NCBI GenBank assembly: GCA_009746045.1
Contig: RPFO01000972.1
Coordinates: forward strand, 510,624 to 574,623
Source of the DNA: Mesostigma viride
Lineage: Eukaryota; Streptophyta; Mesostigmatophyceae; Mesostigmatales; Mesostigmataceae
Direction: 5' to 3'
DNA length: 64,000 nucleotides
This document shows, in pieces, positions 11,093 through 58,960 of the stretch. Numbering within the stretch: position 1 is the first letter of the stretch; the number at the start of each line of letters is the position of its first letter. The notes beneath the pieces are model-generated. The model ran no database searches. It saw only the letters and a list, made by a program, of their open reading frames with translations, and was not told the origin of the DNA. A program made the translations under genes and the position numbers.

Positions 11093-12390
11093 TTAACTTA
11101 GGCCCCCCATGTCCTCTACTAGCTGTTCTTTGAAGGTGCGGGCCTTGCGGCGTCTAACGTTAGGGGGCCCGGCCCACGTAAGGAGGTGCCGGCCAGGCTG
11201 AGCTGGGCGCAGTCCCGCGGGGGGGGCACGTGAGGTGTGTATCTGGTTGGTGCGAGCTAAGTGCCCTACTAGCGGCAGGCGCTGCTGCTTAATGGTGCTG
11301 GTGAAGTATGGCATGCCGAGGTACAGGTCCTCATTGCGAACATGAGCAGCATAGCCTACTCTGAAAATGGATCGCAGCATGTTGGTGACTGCGCCGTCCA
11401 GCTTTCGGGCCAGGTCGGCGGTGAGGGTCCACGTGACTCTCGGCCCCATACGTAAGAACAGGAAGGACGAGGACAGGTCCTGTTTCTCTATCTTGCCCAG
11501 GGGCTTGCGCCACAGGGCCCGGTATTGGCGTAAAGCGTGCCAGGCGAGGGAGATGCGGTGGTCCACATCAGCCTCGCAGCTGGGGAGGAGGCTGCCCAGC
11601 AGCTTGACGCGGTCCCGATACAGGACTCGAGAGCCGTCAAGGAGAAAGAGGGCGGGCGGTGCATGGCTGAGTGAGCCCAATCGCCAGAGCCTCTGTCTTC
11701 TTGCTGACCTCAAGCCCCACTGCGCGGGCCTCGATAGCCAGGCAGTCAAGCCCCGTCTGCACGTGCCCAGTGTCGGCCTCGAAGAGCCGGGTGGTGTCGT
11801 CTGCCATAGATGATGTCCGCCAGCCGAATCTCCGTTTCCCGGTTTCCGCCCCGCCACGCCAGAAACGGTTTCCGACCTGCACCCCTGGTTCCCCACCCAC
11901 GATGCGGGCAAATCGCTTGCGCGCCTGAATCATTATACGTATTCGACCTGCACAATAATGAACACTGAGGTAGGGCGACAGCACGCAGCCCTGCCACACA
12001 CCCAATTCTGTAAAGGGCATGGTGCCAGGCGTGGTCCCGTAGGAAGTGCGCACCGAAGTGGTGGACCCTTCATACAGGTTGCGGATGACAGCAATGGGGC
12101 GGGGGATCCGTAACAGAGCGAGGATGTCCCATAGCGCAGGCCAGAAAACCGAATCGAAGGCATTGATGAAGTCCACCAGCACAAGGTGCAGAGGGAACTC
12201 ACCAGGCTGAAGGCGTTGCAGTTCTTCCACAAGGCGGCGAGTAGCAAAGAGCGCCTGTATACTGTGTTGCGACCCGAATGGAAGCCGTGCTGAGTCTCGC
12301 TGAGGTGGCCGTCCAGCTAGGGCCGTGCCGGCGCAGGCGGTTCAGGATGAGCCGCATGAGAAGCTTGAGGGGGGCACTTTGTATGCACAC
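11093..12390 (-). pseudogene. LINE reverse transcriptase fragment, frameshifted
   Basis: The minus-strand segments show non-LTR RT blocks in order: a start block (APLKLLMRLILNRL, 12390-12199), then VDFINAFDSVFW, GVWQGCVLSPYLS and the catalytic site as MADDTT (12230-11637), where YADD is usual. A C-terminal region (11911-11093) contains WRKPLGKIEKQ, LYLGMPYF and LPLVGHLARTNQ, and ends in a stop at 11093. At least two frame changes break it, and the 5' end is truncated inside RT at about 12390. The C-terminal region is related to that of the LINE at 30.7-32.6 kb but is clearly divergent, so two LINE subfamilies are present. Confidence 0.8.
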
Positions 12391-30739: not shown

Positions 30740-32610
30740 CTTGACCGCTGGTTGGCCCACAATGTTTCCTTGACCGGTGGGGCTCGCGCCCCCCCCCGCC
30801 GCTTCACCCCGAGACATACGGCCGCCCGCCTCGGGGTTGCCGGACCCCCGCCGCCGCCAGCGCCCCCCTCCTTGGCCGCGGACTACCAAGTCCCCGCCTT
30901 GCAGGAGGGCTGCCTTGCCACTGACGACGTCGTCCACCCCTTCACTTTGAAGGAATTGGACGGCGCCCTTGCTCGCCTGCGGTACGATGCGGCGGTCGGT
31001 GCCGACCACCTTTCTGCTGAGCTGCTGAAGACCCCTGATCCGGCGGTTAGGGATCTTCTGCTGGCGTTCTGCAACCGTGTCCTGCTTTCTGACGAGCCTC
31101 CGCCTGCTGAGTGGCAGACGGCCATCCGCGTCATGCTGTACAAGATGGGCTCTGCTGCTGACCCCGGTAACTAGTAACAGGGGTGTCTGCCTCCAGAGCG
31201 CCGCGCTGAAGGTCTTCATGCGCATGATGCTGCACAGGCTCCGCGCCGCGCTGGACCCACACCTGGGTGAGTCTCAGATGGGTTTCCGTCGTGGTCGTAA
31301 CACTGTCATGGCTGTGTTTGTCGCGCGCCGGTTGATGGAGGAGGTGCGTCGCCTTCCCCCTGACAGTTTGCCGCTGGTCTTCATTTTTGTTGACTACAGT
31401 ATATCAAGGCCTTTGACACGGTCCTCTGGGAGGCTCTTTGGGCCATCCTAGCTCTGGATCGGGTGCCACCTGCGTTTATTGCTGCCATTCACCGACTGTA
31501 TGAGGGCTCACAGGCAGTAGTGCGGACTGCGGAAGGCACCACCCCACCATGCATTCCCCCTTCACCACGGGGTGTGGCAAGCCGGTTGTGTCCTGTCCCG
31601 CCATACCTGTTCATTATGGTCGTGGATCACGTCATGTGCCGAGCACGTGCGCGCTTTACTGCTCTTAAGGGGTTCGAGCCAGGCTTGGACATCCTTAACG
31701 AGAAAGAGCATGGCGGGGTTAGACCTGGTTACCGCCTGGCCGACCTGATTTATGCGGATGACACCACCCTCATCGCGCGCCCCGAGCACATTCAGACCTG
31801 GCTGGACTGTCTGGGCCTGGAGGCGAGGGAGGTGGGGTTGGAGATTAGTGTCAAAACCGAGGCGATGGTGATTGGGGCCTCCAGTACACCGCTGCTGCGC
31901 CTGCTCGATGGGACGACGGTCCCGTTCCGCGATCGCTTCAAGCTGTTAGGGAACTGGCTCCCTGACACCGCCGACGATGTGGACACCCGCATCGGCCTGG
32001 CCTGGGCTATAGGCTTCGTTCATTCAACACCTACTGGCGCTCCAAGGGCCTGGGCGACCACCGCAAGCGCATGCTCTTCAAGGTCCTCGTCCTCACGGTG
32101 CTCACGTATGGCGCCGAGGCGTGGACACTCACACCCACACTGGCAGCTAGGCTAGACGGCACAGTTTACAGGATGCTCCGACAGGTCCTGAACGTAGGGT
32201 TTTCCAAGCGCCCGGCGTCATCAGAGTCTTTGTATCAGGGCATGCCTCGTATTTCGGACGAGATTAGACAGCGTAGGATAGCATTTGTAGGACACCTTGC
32301 TCGCACTAGCCAGGTCGACACCGCCCTTGGTCTGGCAGGCCCCCAGCGGCTTGGCCAGCCAGGGCGGCACATTCTGACCTGGCCTGGCCCCAAGGGCATT
32401 CGCAAAAGGGTAGGGAAACATGTCACGAACTACGTACAGATGTTGCTGGATGACCTACTGGTCCCAGCCCAGTTTGAATACCGCATCCACTCTCTCTCCC
32501 TTTTTTGGACTGCCATGCAGAACAAGACGCGGTGGCAGAAGATTGTCAAGGCTCACACATGCACCCGACCCTGTGGGCAAGCCCCCTCCCCCCAAGAGGA
32601 GGGGTTTTGA
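30740..32610 (+). pseudogene. LINE reverse transcriptase and C-terminal domain
   Basis: The RT blocks are LARLRYDAAVGADHLSAELL, WQTAIRVMLYKMG, SQMGFRRGRNTVMAVF, VFIFVDYS and YADDTTLIA (about 31752-31778), with the catalytic YADD intact. The C-terminal domain (32071-32610) has TYGAEAWTLTPTLAARLDG, IAFVGHLARTSQ and WTAMQNKTRWQKIV. Stops and frame changes near 31170, 31405 and 32010 inactivate it. RT primes on nicked DNA in this class. Confidence 0.8.
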
Positions 32611-34664: not shown

Positions 34665-35154
34665 TCAGTCACGCGTGACAAACCTGGAAAGCCTCCGGAA
34701 TGCCTTGATGGTATGGTCCAACTCCGAGAGCATGCTAGGCAGCGCCTTGTCACCGTCATGGCCGACATAGCTGCGATCCAGCCATCGCTGGTATTTCTCG
34801 AGCAGGGCCGGGGTGAGGTCCACGGCCGGCCGGCCCAGCATGTAGGTGGCGTCCCTGAGCTTTGGTACATACTTGAGGAATGGCAGCACCTTCCTGTCCT
34901 TGGAGTCGCTGACCAGCAGGGCCTTCACATCTGGTCGGACACCATCGTTGTTCACGAGCCTTGTCACCTGCTCCAGGAAATTGTCATCCACACGGCAAAT
35001 CTCCTCGGCCCCTGCCGTGTGCTCAACCTGGATTTTTGTCATCAGGAACGGTAGCAGCATGGTGGGCTTGCTGTGGAATGCGTAGGGCTGGGTCCGCTTG
35101 CTGAGCTGGGACGCCTTCTCTCGGCTCCCCACCGTGGCTTTCAATTCAATGATC
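34665..35154 (-). CDS. SAP-ParA gene exon 6, C-terminal part of ATPase
   Basis: The acceptor is ACGGACAG|GATC; phase 2 matches exon 5 and gives the join [12 protein letters not shown]. The exon encodes residues 2152-2313 with no stop until 34665: a basic, helical tail ([20 protein letters not shown]) that corresponds to the last strands and helices of ParA-like proteins. An inverted-repeat transposon begins 19 bp beyond the stop, so the 3' untranslated region must run into it. Confidence 0.8.
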
Positions 35155-35666
35155 CTGTCCGTACGACGCCAGAATTCAGAAGAAACAAGGGACGCAGCGC
35201 AACTGAGTTAGCAGTTTGAATTCTAGTCTGAGTAAGAAGGCATTGATAGGAAGAACATGCACAGGTGCACACATCTGGCCACTGACAAGACATAGCTGGC
35301 TAGCTAGCTAGGTGTGTGTGTTCTGATCAGGCACTCCGCAAAGGTGAAAACCATTTGCGTTCAGTGCCGGGCCGCGGAAAACGCGGAAAAACGCGATCTG
35401 CAAATGAATCCGACCGGAATCGAACTGGGGACCTCTCGCACCAATTTTGCTGACTATAGGACGGACGTCTCCGGTTACCATGGCATCGCCAACTTACACC
35501 TACAGTCATCCGCAAAAGTTCTCCTGTCCGGGGAGTGATGCAAGCCTTTCGGATTTGGTACTAGATAAATCACTCGAGATCTGTGTGTAGTACTACACAC
35601 GTGTCTGCACGCGAGACTTGTTCAGTCTCGCACCGTGAGACGGGCTGAACACGGCTGAATCCTTCT

Positions 35667-35713
<47 letters not shown>

Positions 35714-38700
35714 ATGTATGTATGTATGTATGTATGTATGTATGTATGTATGTATGTATGTATGTATGTATGTATGTATGTATGTATGTATGTATGTATG
35801 AATGTATGTATGTATGTATGTATGTATTTATGTATGTATGTATGTATGTATGAATGTATGTATGTATGTATGTATGTATGAATGTATGAATGTATGCATG
35901 GATGGATGGATGGATGGATGGATGGATGGATGGATGGATGGATGGATGGATGGATGGATGGATGGATGGATGGATGGATGGATGGATGGATGGATGGATG
36001 GATGGATGGATGGATGGATGGATGGATGGATGGATGGATGGATGGATGGATGGATGGATGGATGGATGGATGGCATCAAGTTTCGTTTAAGTGGCCAGCC
36101 GGAGCGGCTGCTTAGGTTTTAGCGGGCAAGTGTTCGAAGCGCGTCATTGGTGAATTACTTGGGGAACTTGGGTTTCCCCGCGAAACTCCAACCGCACGTT
36201 CAGATTTCCAAATCTCAAGTAAAGTTCGGCGGAACTTTCTGAACGGGGGCAGTTGACGAGCAGCATTCCTCCGGACGAATGAATTGCGTTCCATACTTGC
36301 GCAAAAATTTGAAAGGTAGCTTGCGTGCAGCCCTACTAAAATTTGCACGGACATTCAGATTTCCAAATCTCAAGTAAAGTTCGATGGAAATTTCTGAACG
36401 GGGGTAGTTGGCGGGCAGCATTCCTCCGGACGAATGAAATGCGTTCCATACTTGCGCAAGATTTCGAAAGGTAGCTTGGGTGCAGCCCTACTAAAATTTG
36501 CGCAAAGTGTGGGACTGAAAATTCGTAACGGAAACGTTTTGGTAGTTGCCGTCACTTCATTTTGCGCAAAGTGTTGGACTGGGAAATTCGTAACGGAAAC
36601 GTTTTGGTAGTTGCCGTCACTTCATTTTGCGCAAAGTGTTGGACTGAAAATTCGTAACGGAAATTTTTCGGTAGTTGGCGTCACTTCCTTTCGTTCGACT
36701 GAAAATTCGCTGAAATTCGCTGAATTCGCACCGTAGCCTAATTTTTAGTACCTCGAAGTGACGAAGCACCTAAAAACTTGCCCACAAGTACACTTGGCAG
36801 CGCGCTCACTGGGAAAAATTGTACAGCCGCTCCGGCGGGCCACTTGAACGAATTGTAATGATGGATGGGTGGGTGGGTGGGTGGGTGGGTGGGTGGGTGG
36901 GTGGGTGGGTGGGTGGGTGGGTGGGTGGGTGGGTGGGTGGGTGGGTGGGTGGGTGGGTGGGTGGGTGGACCCGTGGATGGATGGATGGATGGATAGATAG
37001 ATACTAAGATAGACTTATCAATAGATTCACGTACCGTGGCATGACGTCATGCAGAAGGCGAGAAACCGACCTCGCAGAGAAAAAGTCCGGCTCGAAGGGG
37101 GGAACGATATAGTCCATGCTAGCCAGCAGCACCTCATTCATGACCCCGATACTCGGCCCGAGGTCGCAGATCATGTACTTGACCCCGAGCTTCTTCCCTA
37201 ATTCCATCAACGCCTTCCGGAACGCTCCCAGCACGATGACACCATCCTCGGCGGCATACTCGTCCTCTGGAGACCCAATGTTGGCACGAGCGGCCTTGAA
37301 CCTGGTTTCCAGCATCGACCCGAGATCTGGGTGGCCAGGGACCAGGAACAGGCCGGCTGGCGCGTCTGGGTAGATCCGTTTGGCATTCCCCGCGTCCTTC
37401 CCCGCCGCCAAGTCCACGATGCTGGCGTCCTGTACCGGCATGCCTCGGAACGAATCAGCCATGATGTCCCTCAGGGTGTTAGTCCCCTGCCCACCGCCTT
37501 CTGCACCATCGTGGCCATGGTCGCACAACTCATCCTCCAGGTCGTCCAGGGAAACCATTCCCTGCGAAGAGGCACCCCCAGCACCCTGGCTGGGTCGGCG
37601 GAGGAAGTGGGTCATGTGGCACTGGGGGTCACAGTCCACGTAGCACGTGGGGTTGCCCAGGTTGCGCAGGGTGCTCCCCAGGTTAATGGCGATGGTAGTC
37701 TTGCCCACGCCCCTGCGGTCAGGTATCATGGAGCAAAGGCAGACCCAAAATGTGTATAATAAGAAAATTGAATGGAAATGATGAATCAATTAACTGCGGG
37801 CACCTCAACCCAGGTCAAACTGATAGTGGCTGTATGACGATAGATTCATCAGGCAGATCATCACTTGTATCATCAACGAGTTAAATGCATGATAACGGGG
37901 CAGGATGTCTCCTGCCCAGGTTCTACTGTTCTATAGTTTGGGTGAGAAGAGCAACGCAATGCACAACAGCCCTGCACTTCACCGCCCACGCTCGCTGGCT
38001 GCTGCCTGCTTTCTCCTCAAGCCTTTTGAGGCAAGCTTGGCCACCTCTACTTAACATACCAGGTTGCAACTGGGGGCATTCAAGGCATTGTCAGAAGGGA
38101 CAAAAAACTGTACCCATCACAGATCACATTCAAAGCAAATAGGAAGGATACCGTTTCGCCCCCCTCGCAGATATGCAATACATACAGTTCACATATACGG
38201 TAGTTATGTATGCACAATAACACTGCTAGTAGTATTAATCTAGTCTATTAATCTATATACACTAGTCGTACATGCAAATTTCCAGTTGACAGCACCCTAC
38301 GTAGCAAGAGAAAGATGACTAGCAGGAATTAAATAGCCCGCATTTTATGTAACGTGGCACCAGGGATTAGCTCATAGTAGTACGTGGGCACAACGACAAC
38401 CATATTCCTAACAATCAGGTACCCTTTACACAAGTAGCAGCCAACCACGACGCGCAATTTCCCATCCACATCATAACAGCGGGCCTATGCACAAGTTGAG
38501 GGTGGAAGGGGTCTGCGGGTACACGTACCCCTTGCAGTTATAGCAGCCGACCAGGATGGGGTACTTGCCCATCCACATCATAACAGCGGGCCTATGCACA
38601 AGTTGAGGGTGGAAGGGGTCTGCGGGTACACGTACCCCTTGCAGTTATAGCAGCCGACCAGGATGGGGTACTTGCCCATCCACATCATAACAGCGGGCCT

Positions 38701-41700
38701 ATGCACAAGTTGAGGGTGGAAGGGGTCTGCGGGTACACATACCCCTTGCAGTTATAGCAGCCGACCAGGATGGGGTACTTGCCCTCCACGTCCTCTGCTG
38801 GAATCCGGCACGCTAGCTCCGTCCCTCCCTTCACGATCATGCCTTTCTTCCCTGGAACTGTCAACGTCACCATGGCTTCTTCCGCATGACCGGGCACTGG
38901 CGGACGTGTGGCCTTTGTTGAGGCCGGCTGAGTTGCCTTGGCTGCCATCTGAGGCGTACCCCTGCCCCCCTCAGTTTTCTCTCCCCCACTCGCCGCCGCT
39001 GGCAACACAGGGGCCGGCTGGGCCGTGTTGGCTCCATCCTTGGCCAAGACAGGGGCCTCTGCCTTCTTTGCTGCCACCGCCGGCGCAGCAGTCGGCACGC
39101 TGGGGGTTGCCTGGGTGGTGTTTGCAGCACCCTGGACCAAAGCAGGGAATCCTGCCTTCTCTGCTGCAACAGCCGTAGTGGCTGGCTGGGCAGTCGTGGC
39201 TGCAGGTCGGGCCGCAACAGGCACTTCTGCCTTCCTTGCCACCATCGCCGCTGCTGGCAATGCGGGGGCCGCCCCATCCTCCGCCATGGCCTTACCTCCA
39301 GGGACCCTGGCAGCCTTGCTGGGGGGCTCCTCGTCTCCACCGCCGTTCTCTGCCGCCCTCTTGCCTGCGACGCCTGCAGCTGCCTTGCTGTGCGTTGACA
39401 CCGGCATCGCCCCTCGAGCAGTTTCCTTGGAACGGTCTCGCAAGGGGGGACGTGCCGCTCTTGACACAGGTGGCTGGGCATTGGCGGCAGCAGGCCTGGC
39501 CATATCAGGGACATCCGCCTTCTTCTTCGCCACCGCTGTGGTCGCCGTTGGCACGCTGGGAGGCGCCTGGGTGGTGTTGGCAGCAGTGTTGGCAACTGCC
39601 GGCTCCTCCACCTTTTTCCCTGCAGCCACCACCGCCGCTGTTTGCAGGGGCACGGTGGTGTTGGCTGCAGGTTGGGCGACGGCAGGCGCCTCAACGTGCT
39701 TCCCTGCAAGCGCTGCCGCGGCTGTTGGCAGGCTGGGTGGTGGACGGGCAGTGTTAGCTGCACCCTTGGCTGCAGTGTTGGCAACAGCAGGCGCCTCTGC
39801 CTCCTTTGCCGCAGCTGTCGCCGCGGTCATTGGTGGCCTGCTGGGAGGCGCCTGGCCGGTGGCGTTGGCTGCATCCTTAATGACAGCAGGCACTTCTGCC
39901 TTCTTCCCTGCCACCGCTGTGGTCGCCTTTGGCATGCTGGGCGGCACCTCGGCAGGGTTACCTGCAAGCTTGGCAGACGTGTTGGCAGCAGCAGCGGGGG
40001 CCTCCGCCTTTTTCCCTGCCGCTGCGGCCGCCGTTGTTATCGGCAGGGCGGGTGGCGCCTGAGTATTGCAAGCTGCACCCTTAGCCACGGCAGGCACATC
40101 CGCCTTCTTCCCCGCAACCGCCGCCGTGGTTGTTGGCTGGCTGGGTGGCGGACGGGTGGGGTTGGCTGCACCCTTGGCTGCAGTGTTGGCAACAGCCGGC
40201 GCCTCCTTTGCTGCAGCCGCCGTCGCCGCTGTTGGCATGCTGGATGGCGGCTGGGCAGCGACGGCCGTGGTTTTGCCAAAGGCAGGAGCCTCCACCTTCT
40301 CTGCTGCAACAACCGCCACCACCGCTGCCGCGCTGGGAGTTTCCTTGATGGCATGGGCTGTGGTTCTGGCAGCTGATTTCTTACCTGCCACCACCGCCAC
40401 TGCTGGCAATGCGGGGGACAAACCACCCTCTGCCATGACCTTGCCGCCAGGGACCCTGGCAGCCTTCCTGGGGGGCTCCTCATCTGAGTCGTCTCCACTG
40501 CCGTTCTCTGCCACCCTCTTGCCTGCAACGCCTGCAGCTGCCTTGCTGTGCGTCGACACCGGCATCGCCCCTCGAGCAGTTTCCTTGGCACGGTCTCGCG
40601 AGGGGGGACGTGCCGCTCTTGACAAGGGTGGCTGGGCAGAGTTCGTGGTGCCCTTGGCAACGGTAGCAGCCTCCACCTTGTTCCCTGCAGCCACTGCCGC
40701 CGCTGTTGGCATGCTTGATGGCGGCTGGGCAGCGTTGGCTGTGGTTTTGCCAGTGGCAGCAGCCTCCACCGTCTTCCCTGCAGCCGCTGTGGCTGCGGTT
40801 GGTTGGCTGGGCGCTGTCTGGGCAACCGTGGCAGCAGCAGGAGCCACTGCCTTGTTTCCCGCGACCGCCGACGCCACCGGTGGCACACTGGGTGGCGGCT
40901 GGGCAGTGGTGGCTGCACGCTTGGCACACTTGGCTGCAGGCTTGGCAATGGCAGGGGCAACCGCCTGGTTTCCTGATGCCCCTGCTGTTTGCAAGGTGGG
41001 TGCTGGCGCAGTGATGTTGGCTGCAGCTTTGGCCACGGCAGGCACTTCTGCCGCCTTTGCTGCCGCCGGTGCTGGCAAGCTGGGAGCCGCCTGGGCGGTG
41101 GTGCCTGCAGCTTTGGCCAAAGCAGGCGCCTGTGCCGCAGCCTTCTTCCCAGCAGCCGCTGCTGTCGCTGTTGGCTGGGTGGGGCCTGGCTGGGCAACCT
41201 TGGCTGCAGGCTTGGCAACAGCAGGGGCATCGGCCTTCTTTGCTGCCACCGCCGCTGTTGCTGGCTGGCTGGGTGGCGGCTGGGCAGCAGTGCCTGCAAT
41301 CTTGGCAAGGAGAGTAGCCTCAGCCTTTAGTGTAGCCAGCCCGGCCGCCGCCACTGTTGGCAACGTGAATGGCGGCTGGCTGGTATTGGCGGCAGTGGCT
41401 TGGGTGATGGCCGGGCCTTCTGCCTTGCTTGATGCAGCCATCGCCGTTGCTGGTGGCGGGGGGGGTGCTGGCTGGGGAGGCTTGGCTGCAGCCTTCACCA
41501 CAGGCGCCTCCACCTTTCCTGCCACAGCCACCGCGGCTGTCGATTGCAGGGTGGGTGGTGCCTGGGCAGTGTTGGCTGCAGCCTTCGCAGCTGCAGGCGC
41601 CTCTGCCTTCTTCCCTGCAGCCGCTTCCGCTGGCAGGGTGGTAGCGGCGGGCTGGGCAGCATTGGCTGCAGCCTTGGCAGCAGCAGGAGCTTCCGCAGCT

Positions 41701-43615
41701 CCTCTTCTTCCCAGCAGCTGCCGCTTCTTACCAGCAGCCGCTGCTATTGGCGCTATTGGAGCCCCTGCATTTTCCCCTGCAGCGGCTGCCATTGGAAGGG
41801 TGGTAGCTGCCGCCTGGGCAGCGTTGGCTGCAGCCTTGGAAACAGCAGGAGCTTCCGCCTTCTTCCCAGCCGCCGCCGCCGCTGTTGTCGCTGTTGGGAC
41901 GCTGGAAGGCGGCAGGGCAGCCTTCGCAGCTGCAGGCGCCTCTGCCTTCTTCCCTGCAGCCGCTGCCGTTGGCAGAGTGGTAGTTGCGGGCTGGGCGGCG
42001 TTGGCTGCACCCTTGGCTGCAGTTTTGGCAACGGCCGGTGCTTCTGCCTTCTTAGCTGCAGCCACCAGCGCAGACGTCGGTGGCCTGCTGGGAGGCGCCT
42101 GGGTGGCGTTGGCTGCACCCTTGATGACAGCAACGCCATCTGCCTTCTTCGCTGCCTCCACTGTGGTCGCTTTCGGCACGCTGGGTGGCACCTCGGCAGT
42201 CTTGGCAGCCTTGTTGGCAACAGTAGCAGCGGGGGCCTCTGCCTTTTTCCCTGCCGCTGCGGCCACCGTTGTTATTGGCAGGGCGGGTGGCGCCTGGGTA
42301 TTGCAGGCTGCATCCTTAACCACGGCAGGAACATCCGCCTTCTTCCCTGCAACCGCCACCGCCGTCGTTGGCTGGCTGGGTGGCGGACGGGTGGGGTTGG
42401 CTGAACCTTTGGCTACAGTGTTGGCAACAGCCGGCGCCTCTGCCATATTCGCTGCAGCCGCCGTCGTCGCCGATGGCCGGGTGGGTGCTGGCTGGGCATC
42501 AAGGGGTATGCCCTCAACCACAGCAGGCGCCTCTGCCTTGAATGCTGCAGCCGCTGTCGGTGGTAGGGTGGGTGGCGGCTTGGCAGCTGGAGCTGCAGTC
42601 TTGACAATGACAGGAGCCTCCACCTTCTTCCCTGCAGCCACCGCTGCCGCTGCCGGCATGTTGGCTGGCGGCTGGGCTGTTTTGGCTGCAGTCTTGGCAA
42701 CAGCAGGCGCTTCTGCCTTCTTTCCGACAACTGGTGGCGCTGTTGTTGGCAGGGGAAGTGGCGGCTGGGTGGTATTAGCTGCACCCTTTGGCGCAGCACG
42801 AGGAGGCGAGTTTCCCTTCGCTGGGCCCTTCCCATCAGAGCCCCTGACCACCTTGCTGCGGGGTTGGAGAGCGTCGTCGCCACTGTCTGCATTAGGCCTC
42901 TTGCCTCCGACGCCGGCAACAGCCTTAGTGCCCCCTCCCCCCTCCCCCTTTGCATCAGCTGCGTTCTTCTCCTCTTCTTCCTCTTCCTCCTCCTCCTCTT
43001 CCTCCTCTTCCTCCTCGTCGTCACTGCTCTCCTCTTCGTCCTCGTCCGTGTCAAGCAGACTGCCATCATGCGACTCCCCCTGAGACTTTTCCATCTCTTC
43101 ATCGGAGTCTGAGTCATCGCTGCCCCCCGCCCCTTCCTCCACAAACCGGCGAGTTCTCGCCAGTGCTGTTAATGGAAGATCAGATGGATCATCTGGTAAT
43201 GGATCTGTTAATGGAAGATCAGAACTCAGCGCTTCCTCCGAGCCATCGCTGCTGCCCTTTTCCTCCTCTTCAGACTCTTCACTCTCACTGTCACTGTCAC
43301 TGTCACTGTCACTGTCACTGTCATGCTCACTCTCACTGTCCTCCTCCCCGCTATTCTCACATCTGTTCGCCAACTTCCCACGGTAATAGCACCCAGACAG
43401 CTTCATTCGCCGCAGCTTCATTCGCCGCACCTTCAGGCTCCAGGCCTCACCGTCCTCCTCCTCCACCGCCACCTCGCACTCGTCCTCGTCCCCTTTTGAT
43501 TGTAGTTCTGACTCCTCTGACTCGGAGGATTCTTCATCCAGGTGCACCCCGTTCGTCGACCCCGTCTCCTCTTTCATTTCCTGTTTAGGACAGACAAGCA
43601 ATCACAAGAGCAGAG

Positions 43616-43649
<34 letters not shown>

Positions 43650-46600
43650 ACGCGCATGAAGAGATGCCAGGTATACAATCATACATGCGCGCGAGAGGTG
43701 CGTGCCAGCCTAGCATACATACCCAGGCCGACTGCCCTCTGTTTGAGGCCATTACATCGATATTGTGAACAGTGCTGTTCTCATGAGTGGCTGCTATAGC
43801 TGCAGTGACGCGCTGACCTTCTTGAAAGCCGCTAATAATTCCTGCCAGAATGCAGCGGATGATGCACCGTTCAAGGCTGCTATGTTGCTACTACTATTCA
43901 TTAATTAATTCATCAAGTAACTAATTAATTAATAAGAACATAACTCCCTTGGAAGTATATGTAACACATATCCCTGAGAAGGGGCATATGGCTTTTAATA
44001 CATTCTGGGCTACTTCCTGCAAGGGTAGGGTGTAAACTACCCCTGCTCTGGGTGCACAAGGTGCACCTGCACCACCATGATGTATCATACCTAAAAGGAG
44101 TAACTCTCTGCATGGGCAAAGCATGGCTAACTACTAAAACGCTAATGCATCATCGGGTGTGGATCCCATCACAGGCACTTACATTACTTGTGAGACATGT
44201 ACGTGGCTAAATAAGGCGAATGCATCATCAGGTGTGGATCCCGTCATAGGCATACATGTACATGGCCCCGTCAGCTAAGCCTTACTATTCTACACTACTG
44301 CTATAGTCCCCTAGGCTGGGGTTGCTGGGGGTGCTGGGACGGTGGGGGTCGCCTGCCAGGGCTTGTGGTCGATGTAGATAACTGCCCACCTCCAGTATCC
44401 CGGCTTCTTCCCTGCTGTCTGCAGGAGCTGGAAGTAGGTCGGCCATAGCTCCCGTCGCCGTTGTTCAGTGCTGCGCCAAGGTCAAGTCGTCGTCCAGCGT
44501 GTAGGAAGTCCGCACGAGCCGCTTGCGACCCTTGAGGAACAGCAGCTACTACTATATCTATTACAAAATAATACTAGTATTACTATATAGATAGATAGAT
44601 ATTTAGAATGCCCCTATTGCAGACTTACATATATGTTGCTGGTCGCGGTGAGCGACCGATCATCTAGAATGCCACCATCCGAGCCAGGATGCAGCGGGTG
44701 ACCCTCCATTTCTAAACATATCAGGTTGCTGTAGCGGCCGCTGTTATCACTATAGGCGCTTACCGTCACAAATGCCGCTATCCCGGCCAAGATGCAGCGG
44801 ATGACCCTTCTCTCCGCCTCGGTCGTGCGCAACTGATTCAGCCTATCCTCCAAATCCTTCTTGCGCTTCAGGGAGGTGAAGTAGATGAAGTCTGGCAGTG
44901 CAGCATGCACCTTGGAAATCTGTCGTGAGGCGAGGCGAGGGCAGGACGGCAGCACGCACGTAAATAATGTGTAGTTCAACGACAAGGTGCCCATACGAAA
45001 GAAAACAGGGATTTCGGATATCGGCACATGGGGATGACAAGACGACAGACAAGCACATCGTAACATTGGGCGACATTGAGAAGACGCTACATAGAAACAA
45101 GACGAAACGGCATGAATATGAGATTAAATTTTCAACACAACATGTTGTTGCGATTGGTCCAGAAGTACGTGAATAAGCAAGATACGTGCAAGCTGTTGTT
45201 GTTGTGATTGGTCCAGAGATACGTACATAAGGGCCTCATCCACATTCTCCATTGTGGGTGGTTGAGAGAGTGGTTGAGCAGGCACACAACGATCATATAA
45301 CTCGCACTCCTGTGCACACAGGCTGATGGCACAGGGAAGCGACTTGTGGCGGACGAAGTACATTCCGCCAAGGCAGTCGCAAAACCCCTGCCAGAGTGTC
45401 TATCTTGGTGGGATGTAATGTGTCCTGGCAGTAAGTCCCAACACCTGGGAGAGGTGGTTATTTTGATAAGCTGTTGAGGGGCGGCCTGCGTATGGCTGTC
45501 ACTGACGGGGTGATTGCCCCTCTACAATGTGGGGAAAGGGCCAACTTCAATGGGGGCCAGGAGATCCCCCTGCGCACTGTCGTGGGGGTCGCAGAATCGT
45601 GGTTGGTAGCAGTAAAGGTGAGAGGGTGCGAGTTTCCCCAAAATTTACTGACCGGTCACAGCTCGTAGCCATTTACCGTTCTAAAGTGAGAGAGGCATTC
45701 GGCAACAAGGCTCTGTTTCAATGGGCACTAATGCTGACGTTAACTCCTAGCACGTAGCTCATGCATAGGTAGACCGGCAGGTTAGAGGAAAGGGACTGGG
45801 TTGGGCTTTAATCCAAAGGCAAGTTATAAGGTTGCTCTAACCCAAAGGGCCACTCCACTAGCAGCTCGAAGCCACCGGGACGCTCTGACTGTAGCTCTAA
45901 CCCACAGGGCCTTGGACTGTAGCTCTAACCCACAGGGCCTTGGACTGTAGCTCTAACCCACAGGATGGCTCTGACTGCAGCTCTAAGCCAAAGGGCCACT
46001 AACTGTTTCTTTTACCCAAAGGTCCACTAACTATAGCTTAACCCCAAGGGCGACTCACGGTGAAGTCATCGATGAGCGCTGCCATCTGGTGGTACTCGGG
46101 GAACTTGCGCTGACGCTCCAGCAGGTCATGCCGCCACCCGAACCGATCCAACTGTCTCGCCAGGTGGACCAGCGCAGCACGCATCGCCTCTAAGCTGGCC
46201 TCCCTCCCCTCGTACCCCCCCCACAGCCAGGACTCAACGATGGCGATGAAGTTGACACCTACAGCGAAGAATGCGGTGAGGGTGGGGATCGCGAGCAGGT
46301 CGCACAGGCTGTAGGCAGCGACGACATGGATCTTCATGGAGTTGCCGGCGCCGTTACCTCGGCGATGGTCGGCTTTGTGGGCCGACTGCATGAGGGATAG
46401 AACTGCCTGGGCCACTTTCGCCCTTTCCTTAGACATGCGTCCTGTATGGGCATGGAAGAAGGGGATGAGGGGATCGGGTGGGCACGTAGGGACATGAATC
46501 AAAAGAGGAGGTATCATACTTCTAGCCGTAACATGTCTGTCACCTAGGGCATGGGGGCATGACTCAAACAGGGGGTTAGTAGGAGTATTCCCTCACCTGG

Positions 46601-48713
46601 GATGTCGCTCAGGGTAGTGACACGAGTAAAACTTGAGGAATAAAACTTGGTTGAATAGAGCTCGATTGAATAATACTTTATTGAATAGAACTTTATTGAA
46701 TAGAACTTGGTTGAATAGAGCTTGATTTAATAATACTTGATTGAGGATGCAAGGCACAGGGGCTAGAGAACGATACTATTATGGTAGGGGCATAATTAAG
46801 TGGCGATGAAACGTGCCTGACCAGTTAGGACATCCTGGAGCATCTTCAAGATATTTAAGGCCATGTACACAATGTGGGATGGCCATGAGATGCCATGTAC
46901 ACAGCAGCAACGGAGGTACACATACAGCACAGGATACAAGGTACAGGAGTTAGGACGCTGTAGGATATAGGATTGATATTGACAGACAATAGAATGGCAG
47001 AGATACGGAATAGCTGATATAAGATAGGGAGAAAAGATTATGGAAGAACAGCAATTAGGGCTAGAGTAGAGGGGGCGGAGGACAAGGGGACAGGGGGCAA
47101 GGGGACGGAGGACAAGGAGTAGATTGAGGACATAGTAATGCCTGCCCGTGTACATCATTTGTCAGCCACGGCCATTGACTAGATAGGACGAGCAGCCTTT
47201 CCATGGGTACATGGGCGTAATATACCCGGTTGATGGAAAGAGGTCCCAATCCCACCGGTGGCAATGAAGAAACCAATAGCAGGCCAATGTCTGTGCCGGT
47301 TCACCACTTACCAGCAATAGAACCAATGGGCTGGCAATAGGTAGGCACAACCACAAGGGTTGGAACGAGGAACCAGTAACAGTTTTATTTGTCAACTTGT
47401 TCGGGAACGAATAGGCTAGGAACTGTCAGGCACTGAAACCTTAGGGGGTGAAACGAGGAACCGATAACAGCGTTCCTATTGACGCAATAAGGAATCGATA
47501 AATGGGATATGTCAGGCACCAAACCCATAAGGGGTGAAACCAAGAACTAATAACAGGTTATTATCGATGTGCTGAGGAATCAAATAACTGGTATAACATA
47601 TCGATTAACATGCACTGAAGCGATAAGGGGTGAAACCAGGAACCGATAACAGTAGCCATTACGGTCTCTGCGCATCCCCATGGGAAGGCTGAGTCAGGAC
47701 GTGTACGGCACGCTCGTCTATATAACATTAGGGGGCAACCAAAGCCAGGTGCCTGGATTAGCATCATATCTCCAGCCCTTGGCCCCGTGTAGTACGAGGT
47801 ATCAGTTTGGTTAATTAAATAAATCACATGACTGCATCACGTGGGTCCAAATAAAGGAACTGTATACTCAACCGTCACAACGAGGAGGGAGGGCGCCCTA
47901 GCTTCTCTCACTGCCTGGACGGGCAGGCCTCAGATTACTCTCTCTGCATCACTTTGAAGCCTAGGCCAACTGTTGCAGGTACACTAAATAGCATGAATAC
48001 GAAACTACAAATACAGTACTAACTTATATCTGTAAGCTTACAGCCCTGGCCATGTATACTCGGTTAAATAGCCTTAACCCAAGCTATACCTCGGTTCTTG
48101 GCTCGGAAACCATCCAGCCGAATCGAGTGAGACGCATAAATATATTAGCCCATGCCTATGCAGTACTTCGGTTCTTGGGCTGGATGTCGTCCAGCAGAAT
48201 GGCGTGCCACATATACATTTAACAAGGCCAAGCCCATGCAGTACCTCGGTTCTTGGGCTGGATGTAGTCCAGCAGAATGGCGTGCCACATATATATTTAA
48301 CAAGCCCATGCAGTACCTCGGTTCTTGGCCTGGATGTAGTCCAGCAGAATGGCGTTCTTCTTCACGCCCTCTTCCTCAATCGCAACCAAGCGAGTCAGCA
48401 GGGTTTGCTCATCCCCTTCTGCGCTGAGGTCGTGCCAGTTGCAAGCGTCCATCAGCTTCCGTCGGCTCATGTAGCGAGCAGGCAGCGCCTCCCATACCTC
48501 CCGCACACTGACCGCGCCCTTGGCCAGCAGGAGTTGGGCGATCCAGGGCTTGGTCTTTCCCGATGGGACGTGGACATGTTTCTTTTCAGCGAGGCTGGTC
48601 AGTTGTTGCATGGTCAGGCATGCCAGGGTCATGGATGCCAGGGGGGCCTTCCTGGCAGCAAGCTTCTTGTCTGCCATCGGGTAAAACTGGGCGCGCAGAT
48701 CGACGTCTGACAT
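34665..48713 (-). CDS. SAP-like / Ala-Pro-Lys repeat / ParA-type ATPase giant protein (six exons)
   Basis: I join exons 48713-48317, 46441-46059, 44919-44764, 43580-38743, 37712-37035 and 35154-34665. All introns are GT-AG and all phases agree (1, 0, 0, 2, 2). The sum is 6942 nt, giving 2313 residues plus stop. Order: SAP-like modules (about 29-64 and 82-112), hydrophobic helical stretch (170-206), basic helix (261-312), Ser/Asp/Glu-rich region, Ala/Pro/Lys-rich repeats to about 1890, and a ParA/MinD-type ATPase to the end. The ATPase has KGGVGKTT, DCDPQ and ICDLGPS, so nucleotide binding should be intact. ParA proteins segregate DNA or position cargo in bacteria; a role on chromatin or organelle DNA here is only inference. 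I know of no named family with this architecture. Confidence 0.82.
35395..35495 (-). ncRNA. tRNA-like or SINE-head segment in intron 5
   Basis: On the minus strand AGTTCGATTCC (35426-35416) is a near-perfect internal B box, and about 60 nt upstream TGGCGATGCCATGGTAACC could be an A-box/D-arm region. Stems do not close well, so a functional tRNA is unlikely; a tRNA-derived repeat or chance are the alternatives. Confidence 0.25.
35680..36074. repeat. Tetranucleotide microsatellite (TATG)n then (GATG)n
   Basis: About 210 bp of GTAT/TATG repeats pass into about 180 bp of uninterrupted GATG repeats. It lies in intron 5 of the SAP-ParA gene. Open frames reading MYVC or WMDG are by-products. Confidence 0.95.
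36076..36858. mobile_element. Small inverted-repeat element inside a GATG/GGGT microsatellite
   Basis: Inverted repeats of about 30 bp (TTCGTTTAAGTGGCCAGCC at 36082 against TTCGTTCAAGTGGCCCGCC read back from 36852) bound about 780 bp. GATG repeats lie directly outside both ends. Inside are two copies of a 155-bp unit (36201 and 36356) and three copies of a 64-65-bp unit (36500, 36564, 36629). No coding sequence. Confidence 0.65.
36859..36998. repeat. Microsatellite (GGGT)n then (GATG)n
   Basis: About 105 bp of GGGT and then GATG/GATA repeats. On the coding strand it starts 36 bp after the donor of exon 5. Confidence 0.95.
37035..37712 (-). CDS. SAP-ParA gene exon 5, ParA/MinD-type ATPase core
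   Basis: The acceptor is GACCGCAG|GGGCGTGGG; the first G completes the glycine codon opened in exon 4, giving KGGVGKTT. Visible motifs are deviant Walker A (residues 1924-1931, Lys1924 being the signature lysine of the deviant P-loop), Walker A' (YVDCDPQ, D1951 and D1953) and Walker B ([11 protein letters not shown]2108), followed by the typical [15 protein letters not shown] Gly/Ser-rich insert with acidic residues (about 1966-2004) is longer than in bacterial ParA. The donor is CCACG|GTACGTG. Confidence 0.85.
38418..38781 (-). repeat. Tandem 107-bp copies of the exon 4 / intron 4 junction
   Basis: Units start at 38461, 38568 and 38675, exactly 107 bp apart. Each contains 39 nt of exon 4 end (coding [13 protein letters not shown]), the donor and 68 nt of intron. 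The copy at 38675-38781 is the genuine junction. A fourth, diverged copy (38418-38466) still reads [13 protein letters not shown] before a GT. Confidence 0.9.
38743..43580 (-). CDS. SAP-ParA gene exon 4, acidic and Ala/Pro/Lys repeat region
   Basis: The acceptor is TCCTAAACAG|GAAATG. The ATG at 43601 lies in the intron, so it is not the start. The 4838-nt exon encodes residues 313-1924. First comes a Ser/Asp/Glu region with (SD)n and (E)n runs, resembling acidic nuclear or phosphorylated tails. Then come dozens of degenerate units of about 30-36 residues around [16 protein letters not shown] and PPPSQPT. Three copies of a distinct module ([18 protein letters not shown], then [10 protein letters not shown]) interrupt them and contain possible nuclear localisation clusters. 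The end, [13 protein letters not shown], is the first strand and start of the P-loop of the ATPase. The donor is AAGGG|GTATGTG. Confidence 0.85.
43617..43650. repeat. (GT)n microsatellite in intron 3
   Basis: About 15 GT repeats directly 5' (on the coding strand) of the polypyrimidine stretch of exon 4's acceptor. Confidence 0.85.
43815..43870 (-). repeat. Distant echo of the exon 3 end
   Basis: The minus strand reads CATCCGCTGCATTCTGGCAG, close to the exon 3 end coding IRCILAG, and is followed by a GT (AAGAAGGTCAGCG) resembling a donor. Confidence 0.55.
43930..44110 (-). repeat. Dispersed repeat R1 in intron 3
   Basis: Reverse copy of the 12853-13070 repeat, with TTAATTAA tail, CATATGGCTTTTAATACATT and GGTGCACCTGCACCACCATG. 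Confidence 0.7.
44110..44550 (-). pseudogene. LINE ORF1 3' fragment in intron 3
   Basis: The text GCCAGGGCTTGTGGTCGATG through GTCGTCGTCCAGCGTG matches the end of the LINE ORF1 gene at 26395-26570 and its trailer at 26220-26395. It is a truncated insertion in the same orientation as the host gene. Confidence 0.65.
44655..44706 (-). repeat. Near echo of the exon 3 end
   Basis: The minus strand reads GAGGGTCACCCGCTGCATCC and continues TGGCTCGGATGGTGGCATT, a diverged copy of the last 40 nt of exon 3, about 60 bp after the true donor. Confidence 0.65.
44764..44919 (-). CDS. SAP-ParA gene exon 3
   Basis: The acceptor is CACGACAG|ATT and the donor ACG|GTAAGCG. The 52 codons encode a strongly helical, charged segment ([20 protein letters not shown]) ending [12 protein letters not shown]. 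Degenerate copies of the RCILAG end appear in intron 3. Confidence 0.8.
45138..45230. repeat. Two copies of a unit of about 54 bp in intron 2
   Basis: TGTTGTTGCGATTGGTCCAG followed by AAGTACGTGAATAAGCAAG is repeated as TTGTTGTTGTGATTGGTCCAG with AGATACGTACATAAG. Confidence 0.65.
45850..46045. repeat. Minisatellite beside the exon 2 donor
   Basis: Degenerate units of about 25-27 bp (CTGTAGCTCTAACCCACAGG) run up to within about 15 bp of the exon 2 donor, on the intron 2 side. Confidence 0.75.
46059..46441 (-). CDS. SAP-ParA gene exon 2
   Basis: The acceptor is CCCATACAG|GA and the donor ACC|GTGAGTC. The exon encodes residues 133-260: a basic helix ([13 protein letters not shown]), a long hydrophobic segment ([20 protein letters not shown], continuing to about residue 206) that could be a membrane helix or a buried core, then an Arg/Leu-rich amphipathic helix ([20 protein letters not shown]). 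No family recognised. Confidence 0.8.
46620..46745. repeat. AT-rich short-unit repeat in intron 1
   Basis: Units like TTGAATAGAACTT recur about eight times with period about 15 bp. Confidence 0.7.
47365..47660. repeat. Three degenerate units of about 100 bp in intron 1
   Basis: GTCAGGCACTGAAACCTTAG with GGGTGAAACGAGGAACCGAT recurs around 47430, 47515 and 47610. Confidence 0.6.
47812..47940. repeat. Dispersed repeat, copy 2, in intron 1
   Basis: Shares CACATGACTGCATCACGTGG and GGAGGGCGCCCTAGCTTCTC with 29336-29470, which is inside a hAT element, so this may be a relic of a related transposon. Confidence 0.6.
48084..48304 (-). repeat. Three echoes of the exon 1 / intron 1 junction
   Basis: Copies start near 48084, at 48155 and at 48233; the true junction unit starts at 48305. 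Spacing is 72-78 bp. Each repeats the exon 1 end (coding NAILLDYIQ) followed by CCGAGGTACTGCATGGGC or close variants, so each keeps a GT at the donor position. Confidence 0.85.
48317..48713 (-). CDS. SAP-ParA gene exon 1
   Basis: ATG at 48713 opens [10 protein letters not shown] and the exon encodes residues 1-132. [20 protein letters not shown] with the following [11 protein letters not shown] fits a SAP helix-turn-helix, a DNA-binding motif. [20 protein letters not shown] followed by LLTRLV looks like a second, weaker one. The donor is CCGAG|GTACTGC. A TATA-like box lies 166 bp upstream. Its last bases are echoed three times in intron 1. Confidence 0.8.
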
Positions 48714-56367: not shown

Positions 56368-57399
56368 GGGGTCGAGGTGCAGGCCGTGTTCACTTGTTCA
56401 GTACCTGGAAGCAAAATTCAGCCATGGCTACTGTACGAAAGCTAGAGGAATGTCAGCCGTATGACCTGCACACGAGGGTAATTAAGAAATCAAGCCGAAG
56501 TTAATCCTGCATCTGAGCGAGCAGAATAATTGCAAACACAACAGCAATTGTGCGACAGACCAAACAATATTGCCGCGTGCACTAGGCTCTGTATTCTGGT
56601 CAAACCCATGTGCATTTGCTGCATTGGATTAGGCGCCATTACGAACTGAGTCGAGGGAAAACGCGAGGAGCGCCATCTAAGCAGTTGCTTGTCATGTCTA
56701 TACGCCCGGGCATCTTATTATCTGTCTACCATGCACGCATTTTCCTTGGACGAATCAAACAGCTTTTGACATTTTAATGGCGACATTGAAGTCCGGCCAC
56801 GACAAGATAGCGCTGCTCAGAGCTTCGTTGCCGAGAAAGGTTTAAGATGTGCTTTGTCCGGGCCGATAATGTAACTTTGCATAGACCCCGGTAGCTTTCA
56901 GCATGCGCATATTGCTTGAGGTAAGCGAGCCACGACGCCTGCAGGTGCTCCTGCCGAGGTGGAGACCTCCGAGAGCACGTGGATTAGGCTCATGCGTCAA
57001 AGCAGCATCGACCTTCATTCTCCTGGTGTGGAAGGTCACTTTTCAGGATTAACATATCTGAATGTTGATGGCCTGTGCATTTTCTGTCAATTGAGCAGCG
57101 ATTGAAACCATGAGCCATGCAAGTGTAAGGTGCAGAATTCAGTTGATGAACCCAAGCCGGTAATGTGCAGAATTGATGAACCCAAGTTATATGTGCAGAT
57201 GTTTCGTCCCACTGGCTGTGTGCTAGTGCATGAACCGTCTGGGCCCTTGGCGTGTACTCACTTGCTGCAACCGTGCCCACAGCTGCTTGTCAATACACGC
57301 GGCAGGCACAATGACTTTTGCCGCGAGGTGAAACATTGAACTCCCCCACACCTTGCATTTTTCACTCTTTGTTTTCCCTATCCATCCTACCCCCCAGCA

Positions 57400-57917
57400 C
57401 ACACACATGTGTTCACACACACACGCCCACATACTGCACATGCACACAAATGTTCACACACACACGCCCACATACTACACATGCACACAAATGTTCACAC
57501 ACACATGCACACACATACACACATGCACACATGCACACATGCACACATGCACGCATGCACACACGCACACACGCACACACGCACACACGCACACACGCAC
57601 ACACGCACACACGCACACACGCACACACGCACACACGCACACACGCACACACGCACACACGCACACACGCACACACGCACACACGCACACACGCACACAC
57701 GCACACACGCACACACGCACACACGCACACACGCACACACGCACACACGCACACACGCACACACGCACACACGCACACACGCACACACACACACACGCAC
57801 ACACGCACACACACACACACGCACACACGCACACACACACACACACACGCACACACACACACACACACGCACACACGCACACACACGCACACACACACAC
57901 ACACGCACACACACACT
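57400..57917. repeat. (CA)n / (ACACGC)n array
   Basis: About 500 bp of CA-type repeats with a central hexamer or octamer array of ACACGC type at about 57545-57785. All His-Thr or Cys-Val frames here are artefacts. Confidence 0.95.
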
Positions 57918-58960
57918 ATACTATACTATAGTTGAGTGTCTCTAGGCACGCGCACATGGGTGGCTCCATGGGCATTTGCCTGTGTCTTGGGCTGGGGGGT
58001 TGGGCTGATTAGTTCAAGAGTGGGCGGGAAGACGGTGGTATAATTGGGTGGGTAGGGACGGAGTGGATGGATGATTGGGGGGGCTGGATGCGGGTGGGAC
58101 TCAAGTTCGTGTAAAGTCCAAAGTTGCCTGTAGCATCAGCAAAAATAAGCGAGAAAGCAGCCTTAATTCAAGGAACCTACTTGTTGTAACATGTGCCAAA
58201 CTGCAATTAATGGTTGCAGGCTCACAAGCTGCCAGCTTCATAACGCAAATGGAATGAATTGCATGGTTACAGGACAAGCGTGTGGTTGGAAATCTTACAA
58301 TGCCTGGCAACGTCTCTTTCATGTGCCCACTGAGAACCGCTGTTCAACACAGGAAGGCTTTGGCAAGCAACGAGCTTCGGCCAGGGCCTTCATTGCAAGG
58401 AAGCGTGTGTGAAGCAATAACGTCAGGATTTACAAGCAGAAACTATACCTAACTTTGCGACCTTCATGCAGTATGTCATGTGCATGGCTGTGTAGTATGT
58501 GCCAACAATCACAACGAAAAAGTGCGAAATTGCAAACATTGCCATGGAAGGGCAGGAGCCACGCACGCAGCAAATTAAAACGGTTCGTGAACCAATCTGT
58601 CGGGCATAAAGGCAGCAAAGTCTGGCCAGCAATAATGCAGTGCGATGCGAGAAAAACTCGGTAACTATGAGCAGGCAGGCGCAGCTCGTCCTCAGCAGTG
58701 CTATCTAACGTGACGGCGCCTTATTTCCGCGTGCACGGTGCCGAACATGGCACTGGCCTGATTCCAGTTGCAGCAACGCCAGATGCCTTCCCGTCATAGA
58801 GCAGAGGCTTCACGTACCAATCGTAATGCTTCCCGTGATAATGCACTCGCGTCCAAACAAAATGTCGAGAAAGCAAACAGTCTACACGCGATAAAACTGG
58901 GCTGCTAGCTTTTCAGGACTGGTTTTACCATGCCTTAAAATTCCATTAGCTTACTTTTAA

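Follow-up and report, generated by a model that had tools for sequence, protein, structure and literature searches.

What does the long interrupted gene on the minus strand of this Mesostigma viride locus encode, and where does its ATPase come from? A first-pass annotation of the window (the whole stretch of 64,000 nucleotides analysed here) had joined six frames into a fusion of SAP-like DNA-binding modules, a huge repeat tract and a complete ParA/MinD-type ATPase, with a suggested role in positioning or segregating DNA. The reading preferred here, to which we assign a probability of about 0.6, is that of a nuclear ATP-switch protein of the long-form ParA superfamily, with a prokaryotic mobile-element ancestry and multiplied in one alga.

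The six-exon model was reproduced exactly, with its junctions, its phases and its total length of 6942 nt, which corresponds to 2313 codons plus a stop (Table 1). All five introns begin with GT and end with AG, and the phases are compatible across all junctions. The introns measure 1875, 1139, 1183, 1030 and 1880 nt (introns 1 to 5), and this range of 1.0–1.9 kb is in keeping with the mean intron length of 1142 bp given for Mesostigma viride in PMC6947507.

The exons carry a coding signal that ends at their edges. In the proposed frame the six exons have codon log-likelihoods of 0.22–0.41, and no other frame, sense or antisense, exceeds 0.13. Because the host codon table was trained on exons 5 and 6 and the tail of exon 4, the independent test is provided by exons 1–3, which score 0.27–0.34; a table trained on transposon frames gives 0.22–0.31 for the same exons, in agreement. 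The short exon 3 scores 0.27 in the proposed frame versus 0.11 or less in the others. Read-through past all five donors and before all five acceptors falls below zero, with values near zero at donors 3 and 4 (-0.03 and -0.07) and with a background table built from these same introns, which favours low scores.

Table 1. Features of the gene and of its surroundings (positions in the window)
Feature	Position	Strand	Content and supporting observations
Exon 1	48713-48317	minus	Residues 1-132; ATG start, GTACTG donor, coding score
Exon 2	46441-46059	minus	Residues 133-260; GT-AG boundaries, GC3 0.80 in frame
Exon 3	44919-44764	minus	Residues 261-312; GT-AG boundaries, coding score
Exon 4	43580-38743	minus	One open frame, 4838 nt long (residues 313 to 1924 plus two bases), with acidic stretch, Ala/Pro/Thr/Lys repeat tract and start of ATPase up to Walker A
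Exon 5	37712-37035	minus	Rest of Walker A, Walker A', Walker B; Pfam AAA_31, alignment
Exon 6	35154-34665	minus	C-terminal extension of ATPase and stop codon; aligns with P0001-P0009
Acidic Ser/Glu/Asp-rich stretch	42927-43580	minus	Residues 313-530; net charge -66
Ala/Pro/Thr/Lys repeat tract	38817-42926	minus	Residues 531-1900; net charge about +75
78-bp tandem repeat	48154-48355	minus	2.7 copies; overlaps 3' end and splice donor of exon 1
107-bp tandem repeat	38461-38789	minus	3.1 copies; overlaps 3' end and splice donor of exon 4
RVT_2 frame	944-2086		Pfam, 6.1e-7, just under curated cut-off
RVT_1 frame	11637-12341		Pfam, 1.9e-8, above curated cut-off
Weak RVT_1 frame	31394-32155		Pfam, 7.3e-4, below curated cut-off

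The exon 4/exon 5 junction restores the motif KGGVGKTT within Walker A (residues 1924–1931), and the exon 4/5 and 5/6 junctions are confirmed because the alignment with homologues continues across both. Two tandem duplications multiply the splice donor sites of exons 1 and 4, and in each the frame of the model is kept by the first copy only. Past the first donor of exon 4 (38743) a stop follows after 19 codons, so only this donor keeps the frame of exon 4 open; in exon 1, a stop lies 6 codons beyond the first donor.

The C-terminal part of the protein matches the Pfam family AAA_31 with 55.7 bits (cut-off 27; 7.7e-15), and also CbiA with 42.8 bits (cut-off 25.4). Walker A is followed by a Walker A' motif, YVDCDPQ (residues 1949–1955), and by a Walker B motif, YMICDLGPS (residues 2104–2112). 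Invariant in all 16 aligned proteins are KGGVGKTT, DCD.Q in Walker A' and D..P in Walker B. Judged by its motifs, namely KGGxGKT with the signature lysine together with A' and B, the protein is a member of the ParA/MinD (deviant Walker A) superfamily.

A homologue search scored the 7998 candidates that had most words in common with the query; 275 of them reached E 0.001, and 120 of these were listed. The best three among the matches listed, P0001, P0002 and P0003 (Mesvir1 proteins 29727, 29725 and 1712), are 45, 34 and 33% identical to the window protein; their label is taken here to stand for Mesostigma viride. In an AlphaFold2 model of P0001, computed with 30 sequences, the pLDDT is at least 90 for 274 of the 535 residues. 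Foldseek places the P0001 model closest to 3pg5 (1.9e-10), followed by Soj and other ParA chains, and 3pg5 is also the top match of the window protein in a sequence search of the PDB (8.1e-11). The profile match, the aligned motifs and the fold of the homologue bear out the claim that a complete ParA-superfamily ATPase resides in a eukaryotic gene. P0001–P0003 score far below the curated cut-offs of more specific models: 45.2, 53.9 and 45.1 bits for the ParA partition equivalog NF041546 of NCBIfam (cut-off 180), and 24.5–28.1 bits for two MinD models (cut-offs 201.75, archaeal, and 212.9, bacterial).

The next six proteins among the matches listed, P0004–P0009, are 26–30% identical to the window protein; we call them metagenome proteins, their source being public contigs of 3–6 kb. 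Two ATPase trees were computed, one of 37 proteins and one of 38. In both, the window protein groups with P0001 (support 100/99), the four algal proteins group together (100/100), and the algal and metagenome proteins form one clade (99/98 and 98/99) outside the ParB-linked ParA proteins. Three ParB-linked classical ParAs form a separate clade (100/100). With midpoint rooting, the long phage and bacterial forms are the sister group of the algal clade (89/78). Because the algal clade is sister to the long bacterial group and does not lie within it, descent from toxin modules is not established by these trees.

About 170 residues beyond the ATPase core constitute a C-terminal extension that is kept in the relatives. 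The profile of the algal extensions matches that of the metagenome proteins at 99.4% (E 1.7e-21), and the latter matches 28 long bacterial and phage proteins at 93.5% (E 2.2e-7); compared directly, the four algal extensions match the long bacterial group weakly (24%, E 8e-4). None of the three groups of extensions matches the three ParB-linked ParAs. This two-step comparison suggests that the algal extension is common to the long-form phage and bacterial ATPases, mainly by way of the six metagenome proteins. A tblastn search with P0008 retrieved gp23 of phage SE1, Orf317 of phage Pf1 and ATPases from plasmids of Burkholderia glumae and Vibrio ponticus, all four of which lie outside the 28-protein extension test.

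The gene neighbours of the prokaryotic relatives were analyzed at 33 loci, defined by an ATPase match of at least 180 residues and an open reading frame that could be located. In 15 of these 33, among the matches listed, a gene of HEPN, RelA/SpoT or SIR2-like type comes next. HEPN partners occur at four loci, two of them identical (L002, L004, L163 and L164, with L164 assigned by BLAST to Pfam-tested members, and with the match of L163 below the curated cut-off and its partner 35% identical to that of L004 over 204 residues). RelA/SpoT partners occur at four (L005, L010, L013 and L015, with L013 assigned by BLAST in the same way), and SIR2-like partners at seven, five of them distinct (L022, L038, L039, L186, L204, L207 and L216, with L022, L038, L186 and L207 assigned by BLAST). 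The remaining loci comprise three with ParB-like neighbours, named by eye, and 15 at which no partner was found or classified; the next gene of L084, counted among the unclassified, may also be ParB-like by eye. The partner at L001 matches no Pfam family. The partner at L165, once a HEPN candidate, likewise matches no Pfam family and the locus was left out of the count; this gene, which follows a phage-type ATPase, resembles a nucleotide-cyclase-type domain by eye. At L243 and L244, too, a long ParA-like ATPase directly precedes a HEPN, RelA/SpoT or SIR2-like gene.

The deposited annotation of two plasmids shows the same arrangement: the gene directly after an AAA family ATPase codes for a HEPN domain protein in Burkholderia glumae and for a SIR2 family protein in Vibrio ponticus. 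In a PADLOC run, ThsA-type models match the SIR2 partner of L204, and two of the ATPases weakly match a candidate system. The ATPases of phage SE1 (gp23), phage Pf1 (Orf317) and a Pantoea plasmid have no such annotated neighbour. Taken together, the neighbouring genes suggest that the long-form ParA-like ATPase may be the common half of several bacterial toxin or defence modules, a pattern that is testable in laboratory strains.

The N-terminal 312 residues, encoded by exons 1–3, are an orphan region. None of 4071 candidate homologues reaches E 0.1, a PDB search gives no chain with an E value of 5 or less, and no Pfam family passes its cut-off, exon 2 giving sub-threshold matches only. The Pfam SAP profile, whose search had been proposed together with that of ParA, matches neither the N-terminus nor exon 1 nor either candidate motif, while the ParA-type search gave the AAA_31 match above. 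A rough SAP profile, built from seven SAP motifs, scores 2.1 bits on exon 1, a value equalled by 14 of 1000 shuffled sequences, and picks up the second candidate motif only. A single-sequence fold of exon 1 has a mean pLDDT of 40; it displays two helix-loop-helix stretches, and at this low confidence it says little about the fold. On these results the SAP-like modules of the first-pass annotation were not confirmed, and the SAP assignment, though conceivable, is unproven.

Between the orphan region and the ATPase lie the acidic stretch and the repeat tract. In the tract (1371 residues, 530–1900), alanine accounts for 33%, proline for 13%, threonine for 9% and lysine for 8%; its lysine content is modest, and the earlier term Lys-rich is an overstatement. 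Of 17 pairs of internal repeat copies with at least 66% identity, 16 have most of their differences at third codon positions. The pairs overlap and are hence non-independent, and such a bias is expected of a translated tract. Gaps divisible by three (86 of 160, summed over the repeat pairs) give no strong signal. The first 112 residues of P0001 resemble the tract beyond composition, with a score of 84 versus at most 76 in 500 shuffles. The N-termini of P0002 and P0003 show no such likeness (247 and 98 of 500 shuffles were equally good), and this was counted against the preferred reading.

Seven of the ten window frames searched match no Pfam family, the other three being the reverse transcriptase frames of Table 1. 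Intron 5 holds long tetranucleotide arrays (35683–36072 and 36860–37002), and a long simple repeat at 57315–57945 gives His/Thr repeats in three forward frames. Intron 3 seems to contain degenerate repeats of the last part of exon 3 (...IRCILAGI...) at 43837–43872 and at about 44690–44710, the first a weak 12-residue match (E 0.21) and the second seen by eye; they look like traces of a tandem exon duplication.

Whether exons 1–3 belong to the same gene as exons 4–6 bears directly on the architecture of the protein. Exons 1–3 are joined to exon 4 on phase and coding signal alone: the GT donor of exon 3 and the acceptor of exon 4 are both in phase 0, a one-in-three coincidence if the two are unrelated. 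The six exons probably form one transcript, and the orphan region may or may not share that transcript with the ATPase. A minority chance, which we regard as substantial, is that two neighbours have been merged, with exons 1–3 forming an orphan gene and exons 4–6 another one, whose start would be the ATG that is the second codon of exon 4. A stop lies seven codons upstream of the exon 4 acceptor, P0002 and P0003 begin near the ATPase and lack the 312-residue N-terminus, and no long proteins carrying such an ATPase were found by search. TGTAA is a putative polyadenylation signal in Mesostigma, and four TGTAA motifs occur in intron 3 versus none or one in each other intron; if the signal holds in this alga, they fit a gene end there. 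These points are set against the compatible donor of exon 3, the 49-codon read-through after this exon that carries no coding signal (-0.03, GC3 0.55), and a TATAAA 174 nt before the ATG of exon 1, found in a scan of the region upstream of exon 1. TGTAA, AATAAA and ATTAAA are all absent from the 665 nt 3' of the stop codon, which was counted against the preferred reading. With two genes no N-terminal domain would be fused to the ATPase, and the preferred explanation of the ATPase itself would still be compatible.

Several other explanations address the function of the ATPase. A SAP DNA-binding protein that uses its ParA motor to position or segregate organelle nucleoid, extrachromosomal or viral DNA appears improbable. 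ParA-type ATPases bind DNA non-specifically when dimerised with ATP, the tract has a basic net charge, and the low-confidence model of exon 1 contains the two helix-loop-helix stretches, but this model of DNA segregation rests on a SAP assignment that is itself unsupported by the Pfam search, the shuffles and the fold. Moreover, the long-form phage and plasmid relatives often precede toxin-like genes rather than ParB. Positioning or segregation of DNA or cargo by the algal protein is possible; the nearest prokaryotic relatives point to toxin-linked modules at least as much as to partition. Their neighbours (15 of the 33 loci among the matches listed, and the annotated plasmids of B. glumae and V. 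ponticus), together with the C-terminal extension shared through the metagenome proteins, speak for the algal ATPase still being the regulatory component of a system that is defence-like or controls a toxin, as the phage and plasmid relatives may be. We consider this equally doubtful, as the 312 N-terminal residues match none of the HEPN, RelA/SpoT or SIR2 groups, forms without such a neighbour exist (SE1 gp23, Pf1 Orf317 and the Pantoea plasmid), no algal partner is known, and the function of the bacterial modules is deduced from neighbours only. Very unlikely is a decaying or non-functional copy, or an artefact of gene modelling among retrotransposons; the reverse transcriptase frames and the tandem duplications over two splice donors would suit it, but the intact motifs, the coding signal in six exons and the conserved alignment with homologues argue against it.

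The preferred reading, an ATP switch of mobile-element ancestry, implies a simple cycle. ParA and MinD dimerise in an ATP-dependent manner, are stimulated by partners to hydrolyse ATP, and are thereby reset. The algal ATPase would dimerise on ATP, thereby bind DNA or a partner differently, and reset on hydrolysis; it would derive from prokaryotic mobile elements, whose long forms often precede HEPN, RelA/SpoT or SIR2 genes. For the tract and the acidic stretch the most likely role would be that of a disordered spacer by which the switch is concentrated or localised. A bolder version, which we hold to be unlikely, is that a eukaryote took the ATPase half of a mobile-element ATPase–toxin module, now present as at least four nuclear paralogues and here fused to an orphan N-terminus via a disordered tract of 1,370 residues. 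If true, the product would be an ATP-gated switch of very large size, which might serve in nuclear defence or in the positioning of DNA.

To our knowledge, most eukaryotic ParA-type ATPases are organelle MinD or the related Ind1/NBP35 and GET3, and a nuclear clade akin to the long-form ATPases of phages and plasmids would be a clear example of an alga that has retained a mobile-element switch and multiplied it. A comparison with known systems places the window protein as follows. P0001–P0003 have the same ATPase and the same C-terminal extension, and P0001 also has a tract-like N-terminus, but these models of 451–535 aa contain no counterpart of the 312-residue N-terminus or of the 1,370-residue tract. 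The earlier statement that no named family has this layout thus holds for the layout as a whole, whereas the ATPase itself has these three relatives. The best match in the PDB by both sequence and fold, 3pg5, is the solved structure of the ParA-like DIP2308 from Corynebacterium diphtheriae; it differs in being bacterial, in its length of 361 aa and in being recorded as an uncharacterised protein. MinD has the deviant Walker A ATPase in common with the algal proteins, but P0001–P0003 lie far under the cut-offs of the MinD models. Classical chromosomal ParA/Soj proteins with a ParB-like neighbour (the three loci with neighbours named by eye) share the deviant Walker core, but span about 250–270 aa from the Walker A region on, with no matching C-terminal extension. 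By contrast, the long ParA-like ATPases of phages and mobile elements have both the ATPase core and the C-terminal extension in common with the window protein; they are prokaryotic, mostly 317–400 aa in length, and, at the loci analyzed, about 22–29% identical to it.
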